Shown piece after piece: positions 1,150-5,402 of a stretch of DNA of 5,402 nt. A model generated the notes under the pieces. The model searched no databases and was not told the origin of the DNA. It worked only from the letters and a program-made list of their open reading frames with translations. Made by a program: the position numbers and the translations under genes. Position 1 is the stretch's first letter. Each line of letters starts with the position of its first letter. Source of the DNA: Magnetococcales bacterium (GTDB lineage: Bacteria; Pseudomonadota; Magnetococcia; Magnetococcales; JADFWU01); the NCBI GenBank assembly GCA_015234045.1, contig JADFWU010000096.1, positions 1-5,402 on the forward strand. The letters are read 5' to 3'.

Positions 1150-1950
1150 TCAATACTGATCCAAGCCGGAATCGCGCATATGATCGAGTAAGATGCGATG
1201 CATTTTCGGGTTGGCGGCGACTACGTTCCCGTTTTGCATGTGCTTTTTTTCGCCGATGAAGTCAGTCATATAGCCACCAGCCTCATGGACCAAAATTACG
1301 CCAGCTGCGATATCCCAAGGCGAAAGGCGCATTTCCCAGAATCCATCAAAACGGCCAGCCGCCACATAAGCCAGATCCAATGCCGCGCTACCAGCGCGGC
1401 GCACGCCACGGCATTCGGTAAAGAGTGATTCAAAGGACTTCATATAGGGCGAAAGCAGTTTTTTGTTCCGATGCGGAAAACCAGTACCCAGAATTGCTTC
1501 TTTCAATAGACCTGTTTGGCTCACCCGGATGCGGTGTTTATTGCAGAAGGCACCGCGTCCGCGCTCAGCGGTGAAAATTTCGTCCATGATGGGATTGTAA
1601 ACCACACCTGCGATGACCTCTTCTTCGTAGGTCAAAGCAACGGACAGAGCAAAGTGGGGGATGCCTTGAAGAAAGTTGCTGGTGCCATCAATGGGGTCGA
1701 TGATCCAGTTATGGGGTTTGTCTTTGCCATAGTTTCCACCCTCTTCCGCCTTAATGCCGAAAGTGGGGTGGGCTTTTTTGAGGTGGTAGATAATTTCCTG
1801 TTCCACTTCCACGTCAGCTGAGCTGACAAAATCATTGGGGCCCTTTTCTATAATCTCAAGCCGATGACGATTTTCAAAAAGGTTGCGTGCTTTGCGCCCA
1901 GCCCGGTAGGCGGCATTGGTCATCACATTGAGAAAGGGGGAGTGATTCAT
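1150..1950 (-). CDS. suhB: inositol-1-monophosphatase family protein SuhB
   Basis: A 266-residue protein, nearly the length of E. coli SuhB (267). The family is a Mg2+-dependent, Li+-sensitive cytosolic phosphatase that hydrolyses myo-inositol 1-phosphate and related sugar phosphates. In E. coli SuhB also takes part in the NusA/NusB/NusG ribosomal RNA antitermination complex. All metal-site motifs are present: A-E-E-G-G at about 68-72 (E69 aligns with human IMPA1 E70), WIIDPIDGTSNF at 82-93 (D85, D88, T90), and the C-terminal PWDIAAG at 211-217 (D213). The substrate-contact region GSAALDLAYVAAGRFDGFWE is at 187-206. The N-terminal KGPNDFVSSADVEVE segment (36-50) matches the family's usual 'K...D.VT.AD...E'. 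The start is ATG at 1950-1948, with AGGA (minus strand, 1961-1958) seven bases upstream. It is transcribed divergently from flgK and has no evident functional link with flagella. Other members of the family, such as CysQ or fructose-1,6-bisphosphatase-like forms, are less likely given this motif set and length. Confidence 0.93.
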   Translation of the reverse strand: MNHSPFLNVMTNAAYRAGRKARNLFENRHRLEIIEKGPNDFVSSADVEVEQEIIYHLKKAHPTFGIKAEEGGNYGKDKPHNWIIDPIDGTSNFLQGIPHFALSVALTYEEEVIAGVVYNPIMDEIFTAERGRGAFCNKHRIRVSQTGLLKEAILGTGFPHRNKKLLSPYMKSFESLFTECRGVRRAGSAALDLAYVAAGRFDGFWEMRLSPWDIAAGVILVHEAGGYMTDFIGEKKHMQNGNVVAANPKMHRILLDHMRDSGLDQY

Positions 1951-2129: not shown

Positions 2130-2144
2130 TGGCACACCCTCTGC
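2130..2144 (+). promoter_or_regulatory. candidate distal sigma-54 (RpoN) promoter toward flgK
   Basis: TGGCACA-CCCT-CTGC agrees with the -24/-12 consensus TGGCACG-N4-TTGC at 9 of the 11 fixed positions, with the invariant GG (2131-2132) and GC (2143-2144) at the correct spacing. The differences are A for G at the seventh position and C for the first T of the -12 element. The predicted transcription start is near 2156, which would give a leader of about 200 bases before flgK. It has the same orientation and the same CTGC -12 variant as the match at 2243. It could instead drive a short leader RNA, or be fortuitous. Confidence 0.5.
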
Positions 2145-2154
2145 TTTTGAACAC

Positions 2155-2176
2155 GGGAAAATCGAATTTTCTGCCC
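2155..2176 (+). repeat. small hairpin at the predicted start of the distal sigma-54 transcript
   Basis: GAAAAT (2157-2162) and ATTTTC (2166-2171) form a perfect 6-base stem closed by CGA. The outer GGG (2155-2157) and CCC (2174-2176) could extend or compete with it if the TG at 2172-2173 bulges. It sits where a transcript from the distal sigma-54 match would begin. The stem is A/U-rich and has no T-run, so it is not a terminator. Confidence 0.35.
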
Positions 2177-2201
2177 AGTAATCTGCCTAATTGGATGATT
2201 T

Positions 2202-2216
2202 ACCGTTCTAAACGGT
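2202..2216. repeat. palindrome upstream of the proximal sigma-54 promoter
   Basis: ACCGTT (2202-2207) and AACGGT (2211-2216) are perfect complements around CTA, centred about 60 bases upstream of the predicted start at 2269. It ends one base before the FleQ-like palindrome at 2218-2231. Its placement and symmetry would suit an activator or repressor dimer, but I know no regulator with this exact consensus. Confidence 0.4.
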
Positions 2217-2217
2217 T

Positions 2218-2231
2218 GTCAAAATCATGAC
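2218..2231. promoter_or_regulatory. FleQ/FlrA-like operator
   Basis: GTCAAAATCATGAC has the form GTCA-N6-TGAC with an A/T-rich centre. The Pseudomonas aeruginosa FleQ consensus, as I recall it, is a 14-base gtCaNtAAAtTGAC. The arms and length match, while the centre differs at several positions. It lies at about -51 to -38 relative to the predicted start of the proximal promoter, 11 bases before its -24 element. FleQ and FlrA are the master activators of sigma-54 flagellar genes in pseudomonads and vibrios, and FleQ also acts as a c-di-GMP-responsive repressor. The family assignment is inference from the site alone. Confidence 0.45.
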
Positions 2232-2242
2232 CGCCAGCAAAG

Positions 2243-2257
2243 TGGCACGCTGTCTGC
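2243..2257 (+). promoter_or_regulatory. proximal sigma-54 (RpoN) promoter of flgKL
   Basis: TGGCACG-CTGT-CTGC, followed by A, matches the consensus TGGCACG-N4-TTGC at every fixed position except the first T of the -12 element. GG (2244-2245) and GC (2256-2257) have the correct spacing. The predicted start is about 2269, giving a leader of about 90 bases before the flgK ATG at 2359. Hook-junction genes are sigma-54-dependent class III genes in Vibrio and Pseudomonas, so the position agrees with the gene downstream. Such promoters need an enhancer-binding activator of the FlrC/FleR or FlrA/FleQ type, not encoded in this window. Confidence 0.8.
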
Positions 2258-2358: not shown

Positions 2359-4212
2359 ATGGCTTTATCCGACATTCTGAATGTTTCAAAGATGGGCGTT
2401 TTCGGCAGCCAAACGGCGTTGAAGGTTGTTTCCCACAATATCAGCAACGTTAATACACCGGGATATTCACGACAGTCGGTCTCTTTCACCAATAATACGC
2501 TGCTCAATGATGGCGGCAAGATGAATGGTGGGGAAGGGGTCTCAGTCAGTGGTGTCTCTCATAAGTTTGACGAACTGGTGGATAACCGACTGCTCAGTGG
2601 CGAACGTGAACTGGGGCGTTTGACCGCGCGGGATCGTCTGATGCATCTGGTTGAAGAGGTGTACAACGAGCTGGATGGTGATGGACTCTCCACGCGGATG
2701 GAGTCCTTTTACAGCGCTGTGGATGACCTCGCTATCAGCCCACTCAATCCAGTTGCTCAGGAAGAGGTGGTTTCACAGGCCGACGCGTTGGCACGATTCG
2801 CCAATAATATGAATGACAGTCTCAGTGAGTTAACGCTTCCTGTTGATCAGGAAATAACTCTGATGCTGGATGATGTCAACACCCGTTTAACCAATCTGCG
2901 GGATGTGAATGCTGACATTATTCGTCAGGAAGCGACAGGACAGCCCGCGCTGGATCTTCTGGATCAACGGCGCACCATGATGATGGAGTTGGGCAATCTG
3001 GTCGATATTCAGACAGTGCAGACTGATGACGGTGGCGTGAGTATTTTTACCGGTAATGGTCAGCTTCTGCTGGATCATGATTATACCGCCAGCTATACCC
3101 GTGGTCCTCAAGAGGATGACAGTGACAATCTGAGCATCATCTTTGCTGGTGTGAATACGGATTACACCGACAATATCTTAGGCGGACAGTTGAAAGGTCT
3201 GCTGGAAGTGCGTGATGAGGTGCTCAATGGCGATGATGGATTTCTCACTCAGTTGGAAGGGCTGATTGATGAGATCCGTTATCAGATGAACACTGTTCAT
3301 GGCCAGTCAGTCAACCGCGATATGCGTACGGAACTAACCGGTGTTTTTTCGTTGGGCTCTTATACGGACACCGCGCTGGAAGAGATCCCTCTCACCTCCT
3401 CCGATGATGGCTATGACGCGGATTTTCCGCCGCCACCGGATTTGGCTCGGGCGATTGAGAATATCCAAGCGTTTTATGATGGAACCGGCACGCTGCTTGA
3501 CGCAGCCAACCAACCAGAGATCACTTTTGCCTACGGGCCAGACGCGACCAGCCTTCAGCCTTTTAGCGTTGAAGTGGTTGATCCGGCTACCGGCAAGATT
3601 CGCAGCTTCCAGGCTCTGGCCGATGCCATCAACAATGCATCGGGCAATGATGGCAACCTGACTGCATCCATTGATGCGGATGGTGCGTTTAAACTGGCGG
3701 TCAGTGGCGATGCTCAGGTATTTGGTGTGGCCGAAGATAATACCGGTCTGATCGCGGCTATGGGTGTTGGTGCGATGTTCTCCGGCACAGGCGCTGAGGA
3801 TATGGCGGTTAATACTCTGTTGATGGAAGACTCTGCCAATCTGGCATCAGTCAAAATCAATATGGACGATCCAGCCAACCCGGTCTTTGATGATGCAGAT
3901 AACAGCGGCATGTTGGCACTGGGTGCGTTGCGCTCAGAACGGCTTGAGCTGAATGGACGTAACGCAAGCTTGGCATCTCACTACGCCAACATTGTTGGCA
4001 CGTTGGGTTCCGAGTTGATGCGTAACCAGGAAGCACTGCAATCCCAGCAGACCGCACAGAGTTTCATCACCGAAGTTCGGGAGTCAGTCTCCGGTGTGTC
4101 GCTGGAAGAGGAGTTGACCGATTTGATTCGGTTTCAGCGCTCTTTCCAAGCATCCAGCAAGATGGTTTCCGTGGCTGATCAGCTCATGGATACCATCATC
4201 AGAATGGTTTAA
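2359..4212 (+). CDS. flgK: flagellar hook-associated protein 1, FlgK (HAP1)
   Basis: A 617-residue protein that forms the first junction layer between the hook and the FlgL ring. It is exported by the flagellar type III apparatus and so lacks a Sec signal peptide. Residues 1-40 carry the rod/hook-family N-terminal helix ending in HNISNVNTPGYSRQ (26-39), the hallmark motif. The helical core around 100-220 contains the usual LLDQRRTMMMELGNLVDI (200-217), followed by VSIFTGNGQLLL (227-238). The last 38 residues (580-617) hold the conserved C-terminal coiled segment VSLEEELTDLIRFQRSFQAS and end ...DTIIRMV. It is longer than Salmonella FlgK (553). The extra length lies in an acidic middle region (about 345-500) that includes a PPPP-D run (357-361) and a flagellin/hook-insert-like segment around 390-470. 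flgL follows after 24 bases, and the proximal sigma-54 promoter lies about 100 bases upstream. No flgJ precedes it in this window. Confidence 0.96.
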   Translation: MALSDILNVSKMGVFGSQTALKVVSHNISNVNTPGYSRQSVSFTNNTLLNDGGKMNGGEGVSVSGVSHKFDELVDNRLLSGERELGRLTARDRLMHLVEEVYNELDGDGLSTRMESFYSAVDDLAISPLNPVAQEEVVSQADALARFANNMNDSLSELTLPVDQEITLMLDDVNTRLTNLRDVNADIIRQEATGQPALDLLDQRRTMMMELGNLVDIQTVQTDDGGVSIFTGNGQLLLDHDYTASYTRGPQEDDSDNLSIIFAGVNTDYTDNILGGQLKGLLEVRDEVLNGDDGFLTQLEGLIDEIRYQMNTVHGQSVNRDMRTELTGVFSLGSYTDTALEEIPLTSSDDGYDADFPPPPDLARAIENIQAFYDGTGTLLDAANQPEITFAYGPDATSLQPFSVEVVDPATGKIRSFQALADAINNASGNDGNLTASIDADGAFKLAVSGDAQVFGVAEDNTGLIAAMGVGAMFSGTGAEDMAVNTLLMEDSANLASVKINMDDPANPVFDDADNSGMLALGALRSERLELNGRNASLASHYANIVGTLGSELMRNQEALQSQQTAQSFITEVRESVSGVSLEEELTDLIRFQRSFQASSKMVSVADQLMDTIIRMV

Positions 4213-4236: not shown

Positions 4237-5402
4237 ATGATGCGTGTAACCCAATCAATGCTCTATCAGGGCAGCCTGGGCGGCCTTCAAGGTAACTTCC
4301 AGGAGATGAAGTCGGTCCAGGATCAAACCTTGTCCGGCAGTCGGTTGAATAAACCGTCTGACGATCCGGCCTCGGTATTCCGGGACATGATGTTTTCCAA
4401 TAGCCTGGAAGGGGTCAAAAGCCTGAAACGCACCACCGGCCTTGCTTCCGAACGTCTGGCGCTGGGCGAGAACCATATTACAGTGATGCATGAGAAATTC
4501 CTGGATGCTCAGGATCTCATTCTCAAACTGGGCAACGATGTGGTGAATGGTACGCCAGAAGTACTCACCGCGGCTTCTCGTGAAGCGCTGGCCCTGTATC
4601 AGGATGTGTTGAAAAACGCCAATGCGGAACTGGATGGCGTGCCGCTTTTTTCCGGTGGTAAAAGCTGGGTACCGTTTGATGAAACCCAGGTGAAGGCCAC
4701 GGATATGATGATGCGTCAGGCATCGGATTCCAGCGGTGATCTCGTCAGTGCGCCAGCCGGTTGGCAGGCGCAAACCGACGAGACAGTTTCAGAAGTGCCC
4801 ATGAGTGTTCGGCTGACCTACAACGAAGCGAATGCCGAATATGAAGTTGATGTAAACGGTGAGACGCAAACGTCCATCGCGGTAACTGGAGAAAATCCCC
4901 AAACCTTGGATCTGGGTAATGGGGTCACAGTAACCGCCGGTGATCTGCCGGAAGATGGCGATGCGCTCTATTTTGAAGTCGTTCCCCGTTATCTTGGTGG
5001 GGAGCAGGACCGGTTGATCAAGGTCTCCGATGATCACGCTTTGGCAGGCAACGTAACTGGCGAAGAGTTGATTGAAGGTAAAGACCCTCCGGGACGTGGC
5101 GTTAATTTGTTCGAGGCACTGTCCGGTCTGCGTGGCGCTCTGCTGCGTGCAGATACCGATGAAATTTCGGCAAGACTGGCGAAGGTGTCTGAAGGGCGGG
5201 CGCAAGCTTCGGATCTTCAGAACATCACCGGCATTCGAACAAAGCTTGTGGATTCGGTTTCCAATACGTTGGATTTTGACCAATACACCATTGAAGAGTC
5301 CAAAGCAGTCAATAAAGAAGTGGATCTCTTTGATGCGATGAGTCGTTTAGAGCAGGCCAATCAGGCCATGCAGGTAATGACCATCAGCGAACGACAGATT
5401 CT
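4237..5402 (+). CDS. flgL: flagellar hook-associated protein 3, FlgL (HAP3), partial at right edge
   Basis: Open from the ATG pair at 4237/4240 to the last base, with no stop, so the 3' end lies outside the window. At least 387 residues are visible from the second ATG. FlgL is the junction protein between FlgK and the filament and is exported by the flagellar type III system. Numbered from ATG 4240, the N-terminus MRVTQSMLYQGSLGGLQGNF (1-20) and the flagellin-like SGSRLNKPSDDPASVFRDM (32-50) are diagnostic. GVNLFEALSGLRGALL (287-302) is the conserved return helix, and the C-terminal DLFDAMSRLEQANQAMQ (362-378) is the flagellin/FlgL C-terminal helix. By comparison with the family I expect only about 10 to 15 missing residues. 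It is longer than E. coli FlgL (317), because of an acidic beta-rich insert at about 143-285. It shares the flgK transcript: the 24-base gap contains no terminator or promoter. Confidence 0.95.
   Translation, partial: MMRVTQSMLYQGSLGGLQGNFQEMKSVQDQTLSGSRLNKPSDDPASVFRDMMFSNSLEGVKSLKRTTGLASERLALGENHITVMHEKFLDAQDLILKLGNDVVNGTPEVLTAASREALALYQDVLKNANAELDGVPLFSGGKSWVPFDETQVKATDMMMRQASDSSGDLVSAPAGWQAQTDETVSEVPMSVRLTYNEANAEYEVDVNGETQTSIAVTGENPQTLDLGNGVTVTAGDLPEDGDALYFEVVPRYLGGEQDRLIKVSDDHALAGNVTGEELIEGKDPPGRGVNLFEALSGLRGALLRADTDEISARLAKVSEGRAQASDLQNITGIRTKLVDSVSNTLDFDQYTIEESKAVNKEVDLFDAMSRLEQANQAMQVMTISERQI

Follow-up and report, generated by a model that had tools for sequence, protein, structure and literature searches.

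Sigma-54 RNA polymerase waits at its promoter until an activator that is bound to an enhancer opens it; a review of flagellar examples is available (PMC3930126). Sigma-54-dependent middle flagellar operons are driven by FlrC in Vibrio, FleR in Pseudomonas, and FlgR in Campylobacter (PMC3930126, PMC7064773). In Caulobacter, which employs FlbD and its ftr elements, flagellar sigma-54 promoters are controlled from separate enhancers, which are located upstream or downstream (PMC3096577, PMC3930126). For the Magnetococcales, the magnetotactic cocci and their relatives, a search of open-access papers revealed no description of flagellar sigma-54 regulation. Here, we analyzed a flgK locus of this order, which carries two sigma-54 promoter sequences in tandem downstream of a conserved palindrome.

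The analyzed stretch of DNA, referred to as the window, is the entire contig C113 of genome G000 with a length of 5402 bp, whereby the source assembly consists of 117 contigs and is 93% complete. Comparisons were carried out with a set of 44 Magnetococcales genomes from 14 families. Family f1 is represented by the window genome alone and the remaining genomes are related to it at order level. A search with the single FlgK protein as query revealed no close relatives of the window genome, and a search with a FlgK alignment as query yielded matches in other Magnetococcales families and in distant phyla only. The following features are referred to below:

1150-1950, minus strand: gene of the inositol monophosphatase family (PF00459), divergent to flgK
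2063-2077, no strand assigned: palindrome CGGCAACATTTTCCT, candidate enhancer, upstream of both promoters (14.3 bits held out)
2130-2144, plus strand: distal sigma-54 promoter TGGCACACCCTCTGC, exact match with -24 GG and -12 GC, predicted start at about 2155-2156
2145-2242, plus strand: inter-promoter spacer with the short inverted repeats GAAAATCGAATTTTC and ACCGTTCTAAACGGT (fold z -0.18)
2243-2257, plus strand: proximal sigma-54 promoter TGGCACGCTGTCTGC, ortholog of the order-wide flgK promoter, predicted start at about 2268-2269
2359-4212, plus strand: flgK, hook-filament junction protein (TIGR02492 above cut-off, PF22638), first gene 3' of both promoters
4237-5400, plus strand: flgL, second gene of the unit, running off the contig (top match TIGR02550 flgL, E 5.5e-30, under cut-off; Flagellin_N)

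Both promoters and the palindrome are located within the 408 bp intergenic region between the phosphatase gene and flgK. The divergent arrangement of these two genes is present in 40 of the 44 genomes, and three of the remaining four have incomplete upstream sequence; the neighborhood is long-lived and kept in nearly all Magnetococcales families. The window also harbors two overlapping minus-strand genes at 73-576 and 569-955, one of which codes for a DUF2335 membrane protein and the other for a small protein that matches no family above cut-off. A search of this gene pair against a defence library gave no match, and no plasmid records resembling the region were found.

Two Sigma-54 Promoter Sequences Upstream of flgK

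An earlier note on this DNA had reported two same-strand matches at 2130-2144 and 2243-2257 that share TGGCAC and an equal spacing, and both their coordinates and their strand were confirmed. TGGCACACCCTCTGC and TGGCACGCTGTCTGC are the sole exact TGGCAC-N5-CTGC matches in the window; they lie 113 bp apart from start to start and present an identical, standard GG-to-GC spacing. A sigma-54 promoter is expected to have an invariant GG and GC at fixed spacing within a TGGCAC-N5-TTGC context. The distal site conforms to this, and the proximal site does so likewise and is in addition conserved at the orthologous position. For scoring, a weight matrix was built from the best site in front of flgK from each of the 43 other Magnetococcales genomes, whereby the window genome was excluded. 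With this held-out matrix the distal site reaches 21.5 bits and the proximal site 18.0 bits. Applied to the upstream regions of all 44 genomes (600 bp each, two of them shorter), the matrix yielded 52 matches of at least 9 bits and 48 of at least 14 bits, compared to about 1.7 and about 0.35 matches, respectively, per 44 regions in the shuffled control, and there was no match of at least 9 bits on the reverse strand of these regions. Analyses at genome level relied on pattern searches and on individual stretches of sequence. Throughout the window genome, the pattern TGGCACN6TGC occurs 56 times versus 16 times for the reversed control pattern, and TGGCATN6TGC occurs 52 times versus 12 times. 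As read off the lists of these 108 matches, no same-strand pair other than the one in the window lies within 300 bp. Furthermore, the distal site is the top generic sigma-54 match between the palindrome and the proximal site (p 0.005 from shuffles). The suggestion that such a pair is unlikely to occur by chance is thus borne out by the held-out scores and by the shuffle and reverse-strand controls.

It had also been claimed that both sites carry the same unusual CTGC in place of TTGC. In the flgK promoters of this order, the first base of this -12 element is C in 46%, G in 28%, A in 19%, and T in 8% of the cases, so that T is the rarest base at this position. Since C prevails at this place, CTGC is ordinary and does not link the two sites, and we rejected it as a shared signature. 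The flanks of the distal and proximal sites are identical at 12 of 41 positions, which is about what chance would give. Therefore, the two sites do not stem from a recent duplication of the promoter. In the spacer, a weak IHF-like site is present at 2188-2200 on the minus strand, with one mismatch to the consensus used. As the window contains many weak matches of this kind (10 compared to about 5 expected), it was dropped as a candidate and no conclusion is based on it.

The rpoN gene was not found in the assembly of the window genome (117 contigs, 93% complete), and the same holds for rapZ, which in each of three inspected relatives lies two genes downstream of rpoN. Because rapZ is missing too and 38 of the 41 genomes in the order set do have rpoN, the absence of rpoN is probably due to an assembly gap. 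The genome presents 14 Sigma54_activat matches, which means that enhancer-binding activators are present. A loss of sigma-54 from the genome was set aside, given that rapZ is missing as well and these activators remain.

Distribution of the Distal and Proximal Sites Among Magnetococcales

A sigma-54 site in front of flgK is present in all 44 genomes, and the proximal site of the window is its counterpart. In single-promoter genomes this site has a median distance of 83 bp to the flgK start codon, compared to 116 bp for the proximal site here. With the flgK matrix, a distal site was identified in 7 of the 44 genomes, belonging to 4 of the 14 families, and it is absent from the other 37. The tandem genomes are the window genome (f1), G012 (f13), G013 (f14), and all four genomes of family f5, whereby the second site of one of the latter (G015) scores 9.6 bits only. 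The distance between the distal and the proximal site ranges from 84 to 152 bp among the tandem genomes. Using a looser generic matrix, secondary sites at p<=0.01 were obtained in 7 of 44 genomes on the forward strand and in none on the reverse strand, and at p<=0.05 there were 12 forward compared to 2 reverse sites. Outside f1, the proximal site is retained without exception, and the distal site is mostly lacking. Of the tandem sigma-54 promoters that the earlier note had put forward, the two genuine sequences in front of flgK thus stand, with the distal one recurring elsewhere, whereas their connection through a shared variant does not.

In family f13, the genomes G028, G033, and G019 carry weak versions of the distal site at the corresponding alignment position, and these versions have lost the -24 C. 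The sequences of this family form a series from TGGCATATCTATTGC in G012 and TGGTATGATTCTTGC in G028 to TGGTTC and TGGTGC in G033 and G019, respectively, and the site is gone in G024. On the FlgK tree, the tandem state requires four changes, so that it has undergone repeated gain or loss and does not represent one trait retained throughout the order. The alignment of the f5 genomes shows an intergenic region that has diverged apart from a few conserved islands, which include both sites and the palindrome. As sequence elements, the distal and the proximal site are a real and non-random pair that is common to several families.

Two side observations concern the DNA upstream of flgK. Upstream of the main palindrome, f5 genomes (L016, L026, L085) show two more conserved stretches, namely a CGACAAAAAGTTAACA-like sequence and a GGCGGACAAWTATGCCGCC-like palindrome. 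In many relatives from several families, a GGCAACGG(C)-like sequence, which resembles one half of the main palindrome, is located about 10-15 bases after the proximal -12 element, near the predicted start.

A Conserved Palindrome as Candidate Enhancer

The palindrome at 2063-2077 has a length of 15 bp and is present in front of flgK in 44 of 44 genomes. Its order consensus is GGGAAACATTTGCCG / CGGCAANNNTTGCCG, with the variants CGGCAAGATTTGCCG or CGGCAAGAATTGCCG in some genomes. A conserved dyad a few hundred bp from the promoters is what is looked for in a sigma-54 enhancer (UAS), and the palindrome presents both properties. As flgK and the phosphatase gene are divergently arranged in nearly all genomes of the set, conservation of the palindrome alone cannot tell which of the two genes it serves. 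G008 lacks the phosphatase gene next to flgK but nevertheless retains a palindrome, CGGCAAGATTTGCCC on the minus strand, at a distance of 100 bp upstream of the sigma-54 site of flgK. Moreover, palindromes are located near the sigma-54 sites of flaG-fliD and of a gene for an SLT-domain transglycosylase in G010, and near that of fliK-flgD in G018. By hand count, sigma-54 sites of at least 10 bits were found within 300 bp of 7 of the 28 palindromes outside flgK, versus 2 of 54 nearby control stretches. Taken together, the retention in G008, the occurrence at other flagellar sigma-54 sites, and the difference to the control stretches point to flgK as the gene that is served. The palindrome is probably the binding site of the activator of flgK-flgL.

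In the window genome, the strongest sigma-54 sites outside flgK mostly lack a palindrome match, and the genome-wide count of the palindrome pattern is not above that of the control (16 versus 19). A role as general sigma-54 enhancer of this genome was therefore rejected, and the palindrome is specific to a subset of sites at most, so that we regard it as a candidate enhancer for a subset of flagellar operons.

Distances between the palindrome and the distal site were measured from the palindrome start to the start of the distal -24 element. They amount to 66 bp in the window genome, 68 and 69 bp in two f5 genomes, and 69, 67, 69, and 69 bp in four f13 genomes, three of which carry the weak sites. 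The other tandem genomes show 90, 100, and 39 bp, and the single promoters sit 97-226 bp from the palindrome. A distance of 66-69 bp therefore recurs in families f1, f5 (two of four genomes), and f13, which suggests either descent from a common ancestor or a need for this position. The two promoter sequences and the palindrome, as well as their conservation and spacing, can be read directly from the DNA. It is a tentative idea, which we hold to be possible rather than probable, that the flagellar sigma-54 operons of the Magnetococcales share an undescribed enhancer, CGGCAANNNTTGCCG, with a second flgK promoter at 66-69 bp from it in several families, and that this one enhancer serves both promoters.

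Proposed Control of flgK-flgL and Comparison With Known Systems

The best reading of the locus, which we consider fairly likely, is that flgK-flgL has two sigma-54 promoters that share one enhancer. The interval would then control a flagellar operon whose transcription depends on sigma-54 RNA polymerase. An enhancer-binding protein of the flagellar FlrC/FleR/FlbD type would bind to the palindrome at 2063-2077, and DNA looping would allow it to open the polymerase held at either promoter. Transcription would start at about 2268 from the order-wide proximal promoter, whose -24 element lies 179 bp downstream of the palindrome, and at about 2155 from the added distal promoter, whose -24 element lies 66 bp downstream of it. 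Both would give rise to flgK-flgL mRNA, whereby the leader would comprise about 205 nt in transcripts from the distal and about 90 nt in transcripts from the proximal promoter. The most likely use of such a pair would be to raise flgK-flgL output, or to tune it differently, in response to one signal. Here, we infer from the arrangement of sequence elements that the activator binds to the palindrome, that transcription also begins at the distal site, and that output is affected.

It might also be that the proximal promoter fires alone, whereby the distal site would hold sigma-54 polymerase in a closed complex that seldom opens, either as the relic of a former promoter or as a parking or decoy site located between the enhancer and the proximal promoter. 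We regard this as rather unlikely, though worth serious consideration. It would fit to the finding that the flgK matrix detects no distal site in 37 of 44 genomes and to the f13 sites, which resemble a decaying series leading from G012 over G028 and G033/G019 to the loss in G024. Moreover, the distal site is 66 bp away from the palindrome, a shorter distance than that of every single promoter (97-226 bp). However, a relic would not be expected to outscore the proximal site, as the distal site of the window does (21.5 versus 18.0 bits), nor to be kept in four of four f5 genomes. That the distal match is a mere chance occurrence is extremely improbable. The motif is short and a single genome cannot show conservation within its family, but the shuffle and reverse-strand controls, the recurrence in four families, and the palindrome distance of 66-69 bp in three of them all speak against chance.

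As regards the product of the distal promoter, a separate small RNA or a regulatory leader could be assumed, since about 113 nt lie between the predicted starts and two short perfect hairpins are possible. The earlier note had likewise proposed a leader RNA. However, the leader folds in an ordinary manner (z about -0.8 to -0.9), a search of it against Rfam revealed no family, no terminator-like site was found within 1900-2450, and the tandem genomes differ in how far apart their promoters are (84 to 152 bp). The leader RNA or riboswitch was thus discarded, and we consider an explanation of this kind very improbable. Somewhat less so, albeit still improbable, is that the palindrome, and perhaps also the distal site, serves the divergent phosphatase gene and not flgK. 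The conserved divergent neighborhood (40 of 44 genomes) and a sigma-70-like site on the minus strand at 2222-2195 would be in line with this, whereas the palindrome without adjacent phosphatase gene in G008, its presence near other flagellar sigma-54 sites, and the orientation of the distal promoter toward flgK argue against it.

Overall, the region fits a known kind of control region, the flagellar sigma-54 promoter with enhancer, and the doubled promoter is a recurring variation of it. It offers a concrete hypothesis, namely that an order-wide activator site acts together with the flgK sigma-54 promoter, to which a second promoter has been added in some families. With the operons driven by FlrC, FleR, and FlgR it has in common that rod, hook, or hook-associated genes are preceded by a -24/-12 promoter and would be controlled by sigma-54 and a dedicated enhancer-binding protein. 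Unlike these operons, the flgK locus analyzed here presents tandem promoters and a conserved upstream palindrome. The likeness to FlbD/ftr refers to the arrangement, in which flagellar sigma-54 promoters would be controlled from a separate enhancer element, here the candidate CGGCAANNNTTGCCG. Tandem promoters with separate sigma factors are known from glnAp1/glnAp2, where there are likewise two starts for one gene and leaders of different length. In contrast to glnAp1/glnAp2, both flgK promoters belong to the same sigma-54 class. Two promoters of the same class under one enhancer allow one to ask how enhancer action is divided between them and, if the proposed reading is true, flgK would constitute a natural test of enhancer-promoter choice and of read-through interference in a sigma-54 system.
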